Assembly: GCA_947475845.1 (NCBI GenBank)
Contig: CANJMO010000022.1
Coordinates: 1-36,036, forward strand
DNA length: 36,036 bases
Direction of reading: 5' to 3'
DNA from: Caulobacteraceae bacterium
GTDB lineage: Bacteria; Pseudomonadota; Alphaproteobacteria; Caulobacterales; Caulobacteraceae
The notes beneath the pieces were generated by a model, which worked only from the letters and a program-made list of their open reading frames with translations, ran no database searches and had not been told where the DNA came from. Below, piece by piece: positions 29,901-32,924 of this stretch. Position 1 is the stretch's first letter. Each line of letters starts with the position of its first letter. Position numbers and translations under genes: made by a program.

Positions 29901-30074
29901 TCAGAATTCCGCCAGCCGCTGGGCTGGGCCATCGTCGGCGGCCTGGCGGTGTCGCAGGTGCTGACGCTGTTCTCGACGCCTGTGGTCTACATCTACCTGG
30001 ACCGGCTGCAGCGCTATCTGGACAGGAAGTTCCCGCAGCGGCGCGGCAAGAGGACCGAAGCCCCGGCGGCTTAG
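26934..30074 (+). CDS. RND-family multidrug efflux permease, MdtB/MdtC-like
   Basis: Trimeric inner-membrane proton/drug antiporter of the hydrophobe/amphiphile efflux-1 family. It begins NFSEHFIRRPIATSLMAAAM (first helix) and has two large periplasmic loops (about 40-335 and 555-870). Proton-relay residues are in place: Asp412-Asp413 in GFVVDDAIVMVEG and Lys932/Lys933 in IGIVKKNGIMIVD. 1046 residues is full length. The start is TTG at 26934, chosen because it opens the conserved N-terminus. The sequence resembles MdtC/MuxC, which normally act as heteromers with a second RND and an adaptor, but neither an adaptor (MFP) gene nor an outer-membrane channel gene is present here. Its stop codon overlaps the stop of convergent gmk. 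Confidence 0.93.
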   Translation: MNFSEHFIRRPIATSLMAAAMLAIGVIAFLRLPVSALPQVDFPTIQVTASLPGASAETMASSVATPLERQLSQVPGLTQMTSSSSTGSTQVTMQFELSRKLDAAAQDVQAAISAAAGQLPANLPSPPTFRKVNPADSAVFVIAMSSQTLPASVVDDYAENIVGAKVSRMAGVGVVNIAGGRKPAMRIQIDPLRAAARGLQLDAIRTAITQATANGPKGQLIDGARATSFYADDQILDAETWNQTIVGYRNGAPIRIRDVGQAVAGVENNQTGSYSQPGRTSHFETLKAGPVIGVLIFREPGANIIKTVEAVKAALPELRAAVPAGIDMSVLADRTVSIRASVHDVEITLLITIVMVVAVIFLFLRDLWATVIPSAVIPVSLMATAALMLPVGFSLDNLSLMAMTIAVGFVVDDAIVMVEGIWRRIEHGEAPFQAALNGSREIGFTILTISLSLIAVFTPLMFMGGVVGRMMQEFALVLSAAVVVSVFLALTLTPMLCGRFLQQPAPPRSRFMKGLERGFANIESGYARALDAVLRHKIATMAVFFITMALTVWLYATAKTGFFPLQDAGFLGGNMVTAQGSSYANTDAKTREVLKIIADDPDVEEAHYTVNAMDTSQAILNVALKPRAEGRKASASDIINRLRPKLANVVGAQAILQASQDINIGARPARAQYQYTLSDGDLDELNSWTPRLVAVLQKLPELRDVNSDQQSAAPSNTLTINRDAAGRFGIAPADIDAALYNQVGQRQVAQYFTQLNTYRVILEAPPGMQATPELLNAVHLMSPRTGKPVPLSSLVTLDPSRVHSQTITHQGQFPAATISFNLAPGVSLGAATEAVEAARANLGAPVTLNGAFQGVAQAFQDSLKDEPVLIAGALLAVYVILGMLYESYIHPLTILSTLPSAGLGALLALRLTGRDLDVIGIIAIILLIGIVKKNGIMIVDVALRLERENNLEPEEAVRLASHQRLRPILMTTACAMLGGLPMILGSGTGSEFRQPLGWAIVGGLAVSQVLTLFSTPVVYIYLDRLQRYLDRKFPQRRGKRTEAPAA

Positions 30075-30715
30075 ACCTCTTCGGCCTGCAGCCCGTCCAT
30101 GAACGGGATCAGCCAGGGGTTGCGGGCCCGCTTCAGCCGTTCGGCATGGTAGATGTGGGCCAGCTCGGCATAGGCCATGTCGAAGTCTTCGTTGACGATG
30201 ACGTAGTCGTAGCGATCCCACATCAGGATCTCTTCCTTGGTGCGCGCCAGACGGCCCTCGATCACCTCGGCCTCGTCCTGGGCGCGGGCATAGAGACGGC
30301 GGCGCAGGTCGGCGATGGACGGCGGCAGGATGTAGACGGTGACCACGTCGTCGGGGACGTTGTCGACGATGCTCATGGCGCCTTGCCAGTCGATGTCGAA
30401 CAGCACGTCCTGACCGGCGGCCAGGGACTGCATGATCGGCTCGCGCGGGGAGCCGTAGCAGTTCTCGTGGACCTCGGCGTACTCCAGGAACTCGTTCTTC
30501 TGGGCCATGGCGTCGAAGGTGGGGCGATCGACGAAATGATACTCGCGGCCGTCCTTCTCGCCCGGGCGCGGGGCGCGGGTAGTGGCGGAGATCGACAGGT
30601 CCAGATCGGCGTGATCGGCCACCAGCCGGCGCGACAGCGAGGTCTTGCCGGCGCCCGAGGGGCTGGACATGACGAAAAGCAGGCCGCGGCGGCCCGGATG
30701 CGCGTGCGTGGTCAT
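30071..30715 (-). CDS. gmk: Guanylate kinase
   Basis: Phosphorylates GMP to GDP, essential for GTP supply. P-loop SSPSGAGKTSLSRR (about 17-30), the GMP-binding region SISATTRAPRPGEKDGREYHFV, and VLFDIDWQGAMSI in the core, then YILPPSIADLRRRLYAR. 214 residues is normal. Start ATG at 30715. The last codon overlaps the stop of the convergent RND gene (TTAG at 30071-30074 encodes both stops), leaving no room for a terminator between. In many alphaproteobacteria gmk follows mltG and a yicC gene; here yicC is absent and the neighbour is a divergent acetyltransferase. Confidence 0.96.
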   Translation of the reverse strand: MTTHAHPGRRGLLFVMSSPSGAGKTSLSRRLVADHADLDLSISATTRAPRPGEKDGREYHFVDRPTFDAMAQKNEFLEYAEVHENCYGSPREPIMQSLAAGQDVLFDIDWQGAMSIVDNVPDDVVTVYILPPSIADLRRRLYARAQDEAEVIEGRLARTKEEILMWDRYDYVIVNEDFDMAYAELAHIYHAERLKRARNPWLIPFMDGLQAEEV

Positions 30716-30777
30716 GCTTCGATGTAGCGGAACTGGTACCTAGAGCCAACCACTAGAGGGGCGAGCGGAGGTTCGTG

Positions 30778-31269
30778 ATGGCGTTGTCGACGATCACTAT
30801 CAGGCCGGCAACTGCGTCCGACGCGCCGGCGCTGGGACGCATGGGCGCGATGCTGGTCGCGCTGCATCACCAGTTCGACCCTGAGCGGTTCATGGAGGCG
30901 ACGCCCAACACCCAACGCGGGTACGGCGATTTCCTGGGCAGCCAGCTAGGCAAGCCGGACGTGATCGTGCTGGTGGCCGAGCAGGCGGGCGCGGTGGTCG
31001 GCTATAGCTACGCCGGGCTGGAGGGCAACGACTACATGGTCCTGCGCGGGCCCGCGGGGGTGGTCTACGACCTGCTGGTGGAGCCCGAGCGGCGGGGCGA
31101 GGGCATCGGGCGTCTGCTGCTGGACGCGGTGCTGGCGGCGCTGGTGGAGCGTGGGGCGCCGCGGGTGGTGCTGTCGACCGCTGAGCGCAATCCGGGAGCG
31201 CAGAAGCTGTTCGCGGAGAAGGGTTTCCGGCGGACGATGGTGGAGATGACCTGGGAGGCGGAGGGGTGA
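30778..31269 (+). CDS. GNAT-family N-acetyltransferase
   Basis: 163-residue acetyl-CoA-dependent acetyltransferase. The start at 30778 is favoured because GGAGG (30767-30771) lies 6 nt upstream; the GTG at 30775 would be too close. Typical fold: TITIRPATASDAPALGRM (strand 1 and helix 1), VLVAEQAGAVVGYSYAGL, the acetyl-CoA pyrophosphate loop VEPERRGEGIGRLLLDAVL (R-x2-G-x-G), and NPGAQKLFAEKGFRRTMVEM at the C-terminus. Substrate cannot be told. Divergent from gmk by 62 bp and followed by a REP-like repeat 12 nt after its stop. Confidence 0.9.
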   Translation: MALSTITIRPATASDAPALGRMGAMLVALHHQFDPERFMEATPNTQRGYGDFLGSQLGKPDVIVLVAEQAGAVVGYSYAGLEGNDYMVLRGPAGVVYDLLVEPERRGEGIGRLLLDAVLAALVERGAPRVVLSTAERNPGAQKLFAEKGFRRTMVEMTWEAEG

Positions 31270-31281
31270 GTTTTCAACAGC

Positions 31282-31313
31282 CGCTCATCCCGGTGAATGC
31301 TGGGACCCAGATC
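31282..31313 (+). repeat. REP-like 32-nt palindromic element, copy 1
   Basis: This 32-nt stretch matches the reverse complement of 31834-31865 at 28 of 32 positions by eye. Its core, CCCGGTGAATGCTGGG, is an imperfect palindrome. The segment ending GGGACCCAGATC resembles the intergenic palindromes with a TCATCCCGG...CCGGGA pattern that are scattered through many proteobacterial genomes. It begins 12 nt after the GNAT stop codon. Confidence 0.65.
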
Positions 31314-31418
31314 ATGGGGTGCTAAGTTCGTCCGAGGATTTGTTCTGAAGTTGACGGCGACCGTCAATCGCCTCCTCATAGTTCTCCAAAGCCTAGCGGC
31401 TGGACCCCGGATGAGAAA

Positions 31419-31814
31419 TTGATCGTTGCTCTAGCGCTGATCCTCACAGGTTTTGTCCTCGCTTCCCCTCTCTTCGCGATTGGCGGATTTTTTGGCGCAG
31501 TGTTCAGTTTCAGGAAAACCCAAGCGCCCGGGCGGGCCCGTTTGCCGTATCTGGGCCTACTAGGGGCCTACCCAATCGGAGCTTGGTGCTGGGGTTACCT
31601 TTTTCAGGTCAGGCCCAATACCCTCATAGCTCCGTGGTGGACGACGGGCTTCCTCGCCTTGTTGGTAGCCATAAGCGTCGCGACGCTCGTTATCCTCCAT
31701 AAGTTCATGCGCGGCGCCCCGCTGTTTGCGATGTCGATTGGTACAATGTGCGTGGGCCTAACGACTATCGCAGCCATCCTTGCTCAGACAGCAATAACGG
31801 GAATGTGGCCCTAG
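31419..31814 (+). CDS. Unrecognised small membrane protein in a lower-GC island
   Basis: 131 residues with four hydrophobic segments (about 2-28, 44-62, 70-92 and 102-127), so probably a four-helix inner-membrane protein. It belongs to no family I recognise. Trp, Cys and Phe are frequent in the second and third helices. The start is TTG at 31419; an ATG just upstream (31411) hits a stop after three codons. Base composition and codon choice (many A/T third positions, TTA-, ATA- and CCT-type codons) are clearly unlike the neighbours, pointing to horizontal acquisition. It sits between two inverted REP-like copies, with a degenerate piece of the same repeat (31401-31415) directly before its start. 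It may or may not be expressed. Confidence 0.5.
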   Translation: MIVALALILTGFVLASPLFAIGGFFGAVFSFRKTQAPGRARLPYLGLLGAYPIGAWCWGYLFQVRPNTLIAPWWTTGFLALLVAISVATLVILHKFMRGAPLFAMSIGTMCVGLTTIAAILAQTAITGMWP

Positions 31815-31833
31815 CTTAGCCTCGGCGGCATAC

Positions 31834-31865
31834 GATCTAGGTCCCGGCATCCGCCGGGATGAGCG
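31834..31865 (-). repeat. REP-like 32-nt palindromic element, copy 2 (inverted)
   Basis: Inverted partner of 31282-31313. Here the core TCCCGGCATCCGCCGGGA is a perfect 6-bp stem with a 6-nt loop. It lies 9 nt beyond the mltG stop codon, a position typical of REP elements (3' ends, mRNA stabilisation or termination). The arms are too short, and the pattern too common in genomes, to call transposon terminal repeats from this window. Confidence 0.65.
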
Positions 31866-31874
31866 GGGTTTGGG

Positions 31875-32924
31875 TTATTTCCCCTTCAGCGACTGGGCGA
31901 TCTGGCGCCAGCGGACGACGTTGCGCTCGTGCTGTTCGAAGGTCTGGGCGAAGACGTGGCCGCCGGAGCCGTCGGCGACGAAGAACAGGTCGTCGGTGGC
32001 GATGGGGTTCAGGGCCGCTTCGATGGACGCCCTGCCGGGGTTGGCGATGGGCGTGGGGGGCAGGCCGGCGTTGGCGTAGGTGTTGAACGGGTTGGCGGTA
32101 TCGATGACGTCGGCGTGGGTCAGGGTCCGGCCGAGCGGGCGGCCCTTGGTCAGGCCGTAGATGATGGTGGGGTCGGCTTCCAGGCGCATGCCCTTGGCCA
32201 GGCGATTGAGGTAGACGCCGGCCACATGCGGGCGCTCGGCGGCCAGGGCGGTTTCCTTCTCGACGATGGAGGCCATGGCCAGGGCCTGCTGCTTTGATTT
32301 GTAGGGCAGGCCCGGCTTGCGGCCAGCCCACAGGCTGTCGACCAGCTTGGTCTGGGCGTCGACCATGGTCTGCAGGGCGTCGTTGCGGTCGTCGCCGCGC
32401 TGGACATCGTAGGTCTGCGGCATCACCGAGCCCTCGGCCGGCGGCTGGACGTGGCCGGTCAGCACCGGATTGTTGTTGAGCAGGTCGGCCACCTGGGCCG
32501 AGGAGAAGCCCTCGGGCACGGTGACGAAGTGGTGCACGATCTTGCCCGAGCGGATCATGCTCAACACCTGGAACACCGAGGCGCGGGCCGGGATGGCGTA
32601 TTCACCCGCGCGCAGACGCCCTGCCCCGCCGGTCGCCTTGGCGGCCAGGGCGAAGGAGAACGGCAGGCGGACCACGCCGGCGTCGGCCAGGGCCTGGGAG
32701 ATTTCCGGCAGGTTGGAGCCGCGCTTGAGCACGACGGTGGTTTCGGTGCCGCCCTCGCGGGGACCGGGACCGGGGCCGAAGCAGAGCCAGGCGAAACCGG
32801 CCGCGCCGAGCAACGCCACGAGGATCAGCAGTTTGAAGAGACCGGAGCCCCCGCGGCGGGGCGGAGGCGGCGCAGGCGCGCGGCGGGCCTTGGATGGACC
32901 GGCCTTGCGCCTGGGCTGGCTCAC
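31875..32924 (-). CDS. mltG: Endolytic peptidoglycan transglycosylase MltG
   Basis: Membrane-anchored lytic transglycosylase (YceG-like family) thought to terminate nascent glycan strands. A Pro/Arg-rich cytoplasmic tail (1-28), one transmembrane helix (29-48), a LysM-like region, then the catalytic domain with Glu222 in MASIVEKETA, corresponding to the catalytic Glu of E. coli MltG. It is followed by GVYLNRLAKGMRLEADPTIIYGL and NPFNTYANAGLPPTPIANPG, both family blocks. 349 residues is normal. The start is GTG at 32924, overlapping the fabF stop (GTGA), so it is coupled to the fatty-acid genes. Copy 2 of the REP-like repeat follows its stop. Confidence 0.95.
   Translation of the reverse strand: MSQPRRKAGPSKARRAPAPPPPRRGGSGLFKLLILVALLGAAGFAWLCFGPGPGPREGGTETTVVLKRGSNLPEISQALADAGVVRLPFSFALAAKATGGAGRLRAGEYAIPARASVFQVLSMIRSGKIVHHFVTVPEGFSSAQVADLLNNNPVLTGHVQPPAEGSVMPQTYDVQRGDDRNDALQTMVDAQTKLVDSLWAGRKPGLPYKSKQQALAMASIVEKETALAAERPHVAGVYLNRLAKGMRLEADPTIIYGLTKGRPLGRTLTHADVIDTANPFNTYANAGLPPTPIANPGRASIEAALNPIATDDLFFVADGSGGHVFAQTFEQHERNVVRWRQIAQSLKGK

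Follow-up and report, generated by a model that had tools for sequence, protein, structure and literature searches.

Inverted REP-like palindromes around a low-GC block in a Caulobacteraceae genome, possibly the ends of a GIY-YIG nuclease system

Between the genes mltG and gmk of a Caulobacteraceae bacterium lie two REP-like palindromes in inverted orientation, and between them a stretch of low GC content holding one orphan open reading frame. How did such a block come to stand there, and did the repeats carry it in? The question was addressed in the window (the whole stretch of 36,036 nucleotides that was analysed), in the rest of its genome and in related bacteria. The features concerned are the following.

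30071 to 30715, minus strand: gmk (guanylate kinase), the left landmark.
30775 to 31269, plus strand: GNAT acetyltransferase gene, an accessory neighbour outside the arms, with a host-like GC3 of 0.90.
31281 to 31313, plus strand: left arm, a REP-like palindrome, with the GCTC tag outside, a stem-loop, then CCCAG and ATCATG.
31314 to 31833, no strand: cargo between the arms, 520 bp, 56.7% GC.
31401 to 31415, no strand: degenerate arm-like fragment, upstream of the TTG ORF.
31419 to 31814, plus strand: orphan ORF of 131 aa that starts with TTG, GC3 0.65, predicted to be a membrane protein of three to four helices.
31834 to 31866, minus strand: right arm, inverted copy and head-to-head partner of the left arm, then ATCGTA.
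31875 to 32924, minus strand: mltG (YceG-like), the right landmark.

The arms are 33 nt long each, 88% complementary (29 of 33 positions matching) and separated by 520 nt. Their pattern had 2 matches in the window, compared to 0.00 expected from 100 shuffles, which bears out the two inverted elements of about 32 nt, identical at 28 of 32 positions, that had been claimed for this place. The enclosed DNA is also lower in GC, as the original prediction had it: 56.7%, compared to 67.2% for the window, with 8 of the 1776 sliding 520-bp windows at or below 58%. The left arm starts 11 bp after the GNAT stop codon and the right arm ends 8 bp from that of mltG. Within the cargo, the stretch at 31401-31415 (CTGGACCCCGGATGAG) has the look of two arm pieces joined together. 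Examined as a classical transposon, the unit had no target duplication by eye in the flanks read, and its long ORF had no family match above cut-off. The only target-site signature visible by eye in the flanks was a tendency, T before and A after.

Folded with RNA parameters, each arm gives a short hairpin with a 4-nt loop; the left arm has a stem of 7 bp and the right arm one of 8 bp. The arms read CCGCTC-ATC, GCTC being the tag. The left arm, like most other arms, carries a CCA tail (...GGGACCCAG), which has drifted to CCTAG in the right one.

In the source assembly (2.65 Mb, 101 contigs, 98.67% complete), 9 motif sites were found with up to 3 mismatches, compared to 1 for the reversed control pattern. 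Three of them are single, and 6 form three head-to-head pairs, every one of which encloses an ORF: the 131-aa ORF in the window, a 95-aa membrane ORF after a gene that we take to be miaA-like (pair C34), and a GIY-YIG nuclease ORF (PF01541, E 5.7×10−15) in the third (pair C26). The arms of this last pair, 30 nt long and with a 7-bp stem, are identical, and the pair lies upstream of a presumed catalase (katE-like) gene, not between convergent genes. Chance would yield 0.016 pairs within 600 bp, and the probability of 3 or more is 7×10−7. The repeats are REP-like and dispersed, as predicted, and two thirds of the sites (6/9) are paired rather than single copies unrelated to cargo. Short doublets, i.e. 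pairs enclosing less than 150 nt, are absent from this genome, all 3 pairs holding ORFs. The window arms belong to another subtype than the C26 arms: they match those around the GIY-YIG genes of two relatives (G002 and G011), and not those of the nuclease of their own genome. Forms of the nuclease from Caulobacter sp. S45 and Phenylobacterium (L181, L179) likewise have arms of the window subtype.

Is the 131-aa ORF a gene? Its case is weak because dinucleotide shuffling of the cargo gave a frame as long in 53 of 2000 cases; it could be a chance frame, and its coding status is putative. Its GC3 is 0.65, compared to 0.90-0.92 in the GNAT gene, gmk, mltG and the gene that we take to be fabF. Among 39 other genomes, it had weak matches alone, in 9 of them (E 0.058 to 0.93), so that conservation of a membrane ORF across the family was not found. 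No relative was confirmed in a scan of 84,980 species, in which close relatives only are detectable, nor was any found among the plasmids or phages searched. No Pfam or NCBIfam model scored above cut-off, EhaL and PEF-CTERM being weak matches below it, and no PHROGs or PADLOC family was found at E 0.1. An orphan four-helix protein had been announced here: the TTG frame does exist and has no confirmed relative, but the four helices come from a low-confidence structure model (mean pLDDT 58.6, too poor for a fold search), whereas hydropathy with a strict cut-off gives three strong segments.

The same place was then read in a sister genome, G002, another species of the same genus with 83% DNA identity over mltG-fabF. 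Here only 63 nt separate mltG from gmk, and this gap contains neither an arm nor an ORF, neither the GNAT gene nor yicC, which supports the view that the block (arm pair and low-GC cargo) is not fixed at the gmk-mltG place. This empty site rests on one sister genome, as the contig of the other congener, G001, ends inside mltG and is uninformative. The island may be either an addition in the source genome or a loss in G002. Intergenic sequences are too diverged for exact junctions or target duplications.

It had been proposed that the island, with the GNAT gene, stands in place of yicC. The gene order gmk, GNAT, mltG is indeed as stated, and no yicC match (PF03755) was found anywhere in the source assembly. 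The replacement itself we reject: yicC is missing from all three genomes of the genus that were covered, G001 and the island-free G002 included, so its loss is independent of the island. In the family, yicC is found in 44 of 60 genomes and absent from 16, and several other genera have it in the mltG-gmk interval. The GNAT gene is patchy, being present in 2 of the 60 family genomes, the source genome included, and the single other homologue has no arms within 1.5 kb. It lies outside the arms and has a host-like GC3, and may or may not be a member of the arm unit.

To see the repeat in a wider setting, 65 loci, mostly of Caulobacteraceae and relatives, were picked for one exact arm. Among 62 neighbouring arm pairs less than 1 kb apart, 61 were head-to-head, 1 was tail-to-tail and none was in tandem. 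Most head-to-head pairs (52/61) were short doublets; one short doublet, folded as above, formed a single long hairpin. Four of the 5 pairs enclosing 250-1000 nt hold a GIY-YIG gene, one of them in the G002 assembly, and the fifth (L162) holds just ORFs of 62-100 aa. None of the 9 pairs of this set that enclose 150-1000 nt had a recognisable passenger ORF apart from GIY-YIG; among all pairs inspected, such ORFs were recognised only in the source genus, in the window, in C34 and in two further loci. One of the latter, in G002 (L137, 1294-2068), has head-to-head arms around an orphan 184-aa ORF with a GC3 of 0.65, a length reached in 24 of 2000 shuffles. In the other, in G001 (L138, 1404-3725), the head-to-head arms are separated by 2.3 kb, which code for a protein of 646 aa containing an RTX calcium-binding repeat (PF00353). 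Of six cargo ORFs examined, four have a GC3 of 0.58-0.73 and the others 0.82 and 0.86, compared to at least 0.90 in the four window neighbours.

In G001 and G002, 5 of 6 short doublets have unlike arms and the cargo pairs have alike ones. Alike arms as a mark of cargo pairs had to be dropped, since 37 short doublets of the wider set have alike arms, 8 have unlike arms and 7 are unclear.

The place of the C34 unit was also compared. In three genomes of a neighbouring genus (G003, G040, G061), the miaA-like gene stands beside a gene presumed to be ilv-like, with no arms. In G002, part of the right arm survives at the 3′ end of what we take to be a lipoprotein gene, the C34-equivalent gene end (L261, near 1479), so the C34 unit probably arose before these species separated, and is fossil-like. 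This part-arm lies at a synteny break, the miaA-like gene being on another contig; arms may possibly serve as rearrangement breakpoints.

Presence or absence at a given place was also compared for short doublets. Twenty of them were fetched from one genome (G081); they measure 125-134 bp, their outer edges are nearly identical and their spacers partly alike. Of 29 related genus loci compared at the first site, which lies between convergent genes, a single one (L244) has a doublet in the matching position and 28 have no arm. Ten loci could be matched on both flanks: 7 have 5-24 nt where G081 has 159, and the other 3 have 57, 118 and 363 nt of other sequence. At the second site, none of 29 related loci has an arm, and the 27 matched on both flanks have gaps of 63-387 nt with varied other sequence. 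The junctions are too diverged to prove target duplication. These comparisons show that, at one and the same site, some related species have a short head-to-head doublet and others lack it.

Several other loci deserve mention. The 363-nt stretch in place of the first G081 doublet (L250, about 1150-1513) has a possible small membrane ORF. At the second site, six loci (L234, L235, L237-L239, L241) have another repeat-like sequence with a common CACAACGAACACAACGAGGCACGA-like core. Two Phenylobacterium loci that are 88-91% identical (L158 and L183) share a doublet, and differ by about 1.45 kb (L158 2613-2629, L183 1835-3291) about 1 kb away from it. A longer doublet of about 212-214 bp, with a palindrome-rich spacer, was seen at four loci of Phenylobacterium MAGs (L173, L179, L192, L201).

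The gene met repeatedly inside the larger pairs is that of the GIY-YIG nuclease. Genes of the C26 type are present in 43 of 60 relatives. In a set covering the order, 23 of 30 GIY-YIG loci have inverted arms within 400 nt on both sides, and the 21 arm-flanked loci that were checked all have an inner hairpin; the same flanking was seen at 0 of the 29 gmk loci taken as controls and at 1 of 2000 random places. The 7 loci without arms at this threshold include one just below it (L104) and one that is incomplete (L099). We conclude from these counts that the small one-domain GIY-YIG genes (UPF0213-like) of Caulobacterales are mostly bracketed by inverted palindromes.

Nuclease and arms also vary together: across 21 loci, nuclease similarity correlates with arm similarity (Mantel r 0.59, p 10−4), a result that shared descent could produce as well. 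In 36 family genomes, the nuclease is present in 24 of 26 with the motif, compared to 3 of 10 without it (p 4×10−4); with one genome per genus, p is 0.054. In two of the 3 genomes with a nuclease and no motif of this type (G007 and G017), the gene is surrounded by other palindromes. The C26 nuclease resembles the UPF0213 chains 1ywl and 1zg2, and shares 58% identity with a frame of Neisseria gonorrhoeae sitting among ten ATTCCC(N8)GGGAAT palindromes in 1.7 kb, the pattern given for dRS3 in PMC3898611. Outside the order, an Azospirillum lipoferum plasmid (L276) carries, within the suf cluster, a GIY-YIG homologue that is placed between sufB and sufC and has inverted palindromes of its own, and a Shinella plasmid (L277) has a GIY-YIG gene between inverted repeats of about 140 nt, each with two palindromes of another type.

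What can be said of the window is then the following. Its arms are shown by comparison to be a head-to-head pair of a dispersed CGTC-like REP, and pair, cargo and GNAT gene are absent from the same place in G002; both the identity of the repeat and this absence are well supported. For the origin of the block, a family of nucleases offers a lead. A 2025 Nature Communications paper reportedly describes Ssn, site-specific single-strand GIY-YIG nucleases with cognate (NTS) repeats, first in Neisseria, and is said to give them a role in transformation. We see an even chance that the window unit is an old, decayed, passenger-bearing cassette with REP ends, and that these ends belong to a GIY-YIG nuclease system, probably of the Ssn type. 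The arms would be the recognition ends of the system. A nuclease of the Ssn kind would cut the arm hairpins in single-stranded DNA, for instance during replication or DNA uptake, and whatever two arms enclose (a spacer of 60 nt, the gene of the nuclease or an unrelated passenger) would then be lost from, or placed into, intergenic sites. The process would resemble that of RAYT/IS200 elements, with another enzyme.

The window copy would be an old one, because its arms have drifted (29/33) compared to the identical arms of the C26 pair, and it has probably lost its mobility, since arms of its subtype surround the nuclease of relatives and not that of its own genome. The original prediction that the repeats may have mediated the insertion is kept in part: they are REP-like and dispersed, and the block has no fixed presence at this place; that the cargo came in by way of the arms, through a GIY-YIG nuclease, we infer with about equal expectation of being right and wrong. 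No direct movement of a passenger-bearing pair was seen among the loci compared, and it is possible that G002 lost the block rather than the source genome gaining it, which would go against the cassette. Also against it count the mismatch between the window arms and those of the nuclease in their own genome, the restriction of recognised passenger ORFs other than the nuclease to the source genus among the pairs inspected, the 7 GIY-YIG loci without arms and the p of 0.054 with one genome per genus. A broader reading can be put forward only tentatively, and we regard it as doubtful: CGTC-type REPs at large may be the ends of a mobile system driven by a GIY-YIG nuclease, in which the nuclease pair would be self-sufficient, the short doublets miniature forms and the pairs around other genes cargo-carrying. 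This would make a transposon-like class with a GIY-YIG enzyme, and not an HUH, DDE, serine or tyrosine recombinase.

Two rivals are serious. A short REP doublet may have settled between mltG and the GNAT gene, with ORF-bearing foreign DNA entering it later and the arms remaining passive. Short doublets are by far the commonest form (52/61 head-to-head pairs below 1 kb), as this sequence of events would have it, but the source genome has none, while its 3 pairs all carry ORFs. The unlike arms of the G001 and G002 doublets (5/6), set against the alike arms of cargo pairs, also spoke against it, an argument that was not upheld in the wider set. All in all, we find later entry improbable, though less so than the reading that follows. 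This second one sees in the repeats just shared sequence for homologous recombination with incoming DNA, as proposed for Neisseria dRS3/NIME, with no unit being excised or inserted. The excerpts of PMC3898611 suggest that neighbouring loci are exchanged more readily where there are repeat arrays, and that pilC1 may have been integrated or deleted at identical copies of dRS3; the G002 part-arm at a synteny break fits as well. Against plain exchange stand the nearly invariant head-to-head order (61/62) and the doublets that some genomes have, and others lack, between gene pairs that otherwise match, both of which suggest a moving unit; we judge plain exchange unlikely.

Two further readings fare worse. 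The arms could be two independent single REPs acting as mRNA ends at the 3′ ends of convergent genes, with an unrelated gene between them: they do follow two stop codons closely, that of GNAT by 11 bp and that of mltG by 8 bp, and REPs favour unidirectional and convergent gene ends according to the excerpts of PMC3733652, but chance pairing is very unlikely (P 7×10−7), the orientation is fixed and the C26 pair is not between convergent genes, which makes this reading very improbable. Least credible of all, hardly to be entertained, is movement of the repeats by a RAYT-type (Y1 tyrosine) transposase: although RAYTs are proposed, in the same excerpts, to move GTAG-type REPs in other bacteria, the search for such a gene found no Y1_Tnp match (PF01797) in the source genome (G000), G001 or G002, and 32 of 38 motif-bearing family genomes lack one, the 9 of 60 family genomes with a match being 6 of 38 with the motif and 3 of 22 without it (p 1.0).

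Coming back to the nuclease-bound cassette, the enzyme that moves CGTC-type palindromes, which are found in alphaproteobacterial orders and, as dRS3, in Neisseria, is left open in the excerpts of PMC3733652. The GIY-YIG nuclease is a candidate because its gene lies inside the pair, arms vary with the nuclease, RAYT is absent and some pairs contain passenger ORFs. If this is true, a new kind of enzyme would join the movers of small DNA units, and one route would be given for orphan genes into intergenic places.

How does the system compare with those already known? Like Ssn, the C26 system has a one-domain GIY-YIG protein, its own palindromic repeat around the gene (here with identical arms) and many genomic copies. 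A Neisseria homologue, putatively Ssn, is 58% identical. Ssn is not known to have passenger genes enclosed by inverted sites like those in Caulobacteraceae. The link between nuclease and repeat may already be in print; among the matches listed in the openly licensed literature, no paper joined GIY-YIG nucleases to REPs, which is no proof that the link is unpublished.

The repeats themselves are closest to the CGTC-tagged REPs of Di Nocera et al. 2013 (PMC3733652). In the excerpts of that paper, these have a stem of 8-9 bp, a loop of 4-5 nt and mostly CCA tails, occur mostly as head-to-head pairs and mostly in alphaproteobacteria, and include dRS3 of Neisseria as CGTC-1; they seem to be without a dedicated transposase, no RAYT/IS200 gene of such species being flanked by them. 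With the CGTC-1 REPs as there described, the window arms share the 4-nt loop, the CCA tail, the predominance of head-to-head pairs with negligible tandem ones, the alphaproteobacterial host and the position at convergent gene ends; their stem has 7-8 bp, compared to 8 bp in CGTC-1. The CGTC-1 tag is CGTC, TGTC or CCTC; as that of the window arms reads GCTC, we call them CGTC-like, a variant and not members of CGTC-1. The pairs of the source genus differ from the CGTC-1 REPs of these excerpts by their gene-sized cargo and by the nuclease gene often lying inside the pair, and gene-sized passenger cargo between CGTC-type arms in place of the nuclease was not met in the portions of the literature covered.

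As in the neisserial NIME/dRS3 exchange, palindromes border the genes concerned, and one array of this kind contains a GIY-YIG frame of Neisseria; NIME/dRS3 are arrays of many repeats in the excerpts of PMC3898611, whereas the source genus has single pairs. Finally, REPIN/RAYT and IS200/IS605 resemble the arm pairs in that paired palindromes form a large hairpin, the units are small and polymorphic and the enzyme gene is bracketed. Their enzyme is a Y1 transposase, not found in the source genus, where the candidate is a GIY-YIG nuclease.
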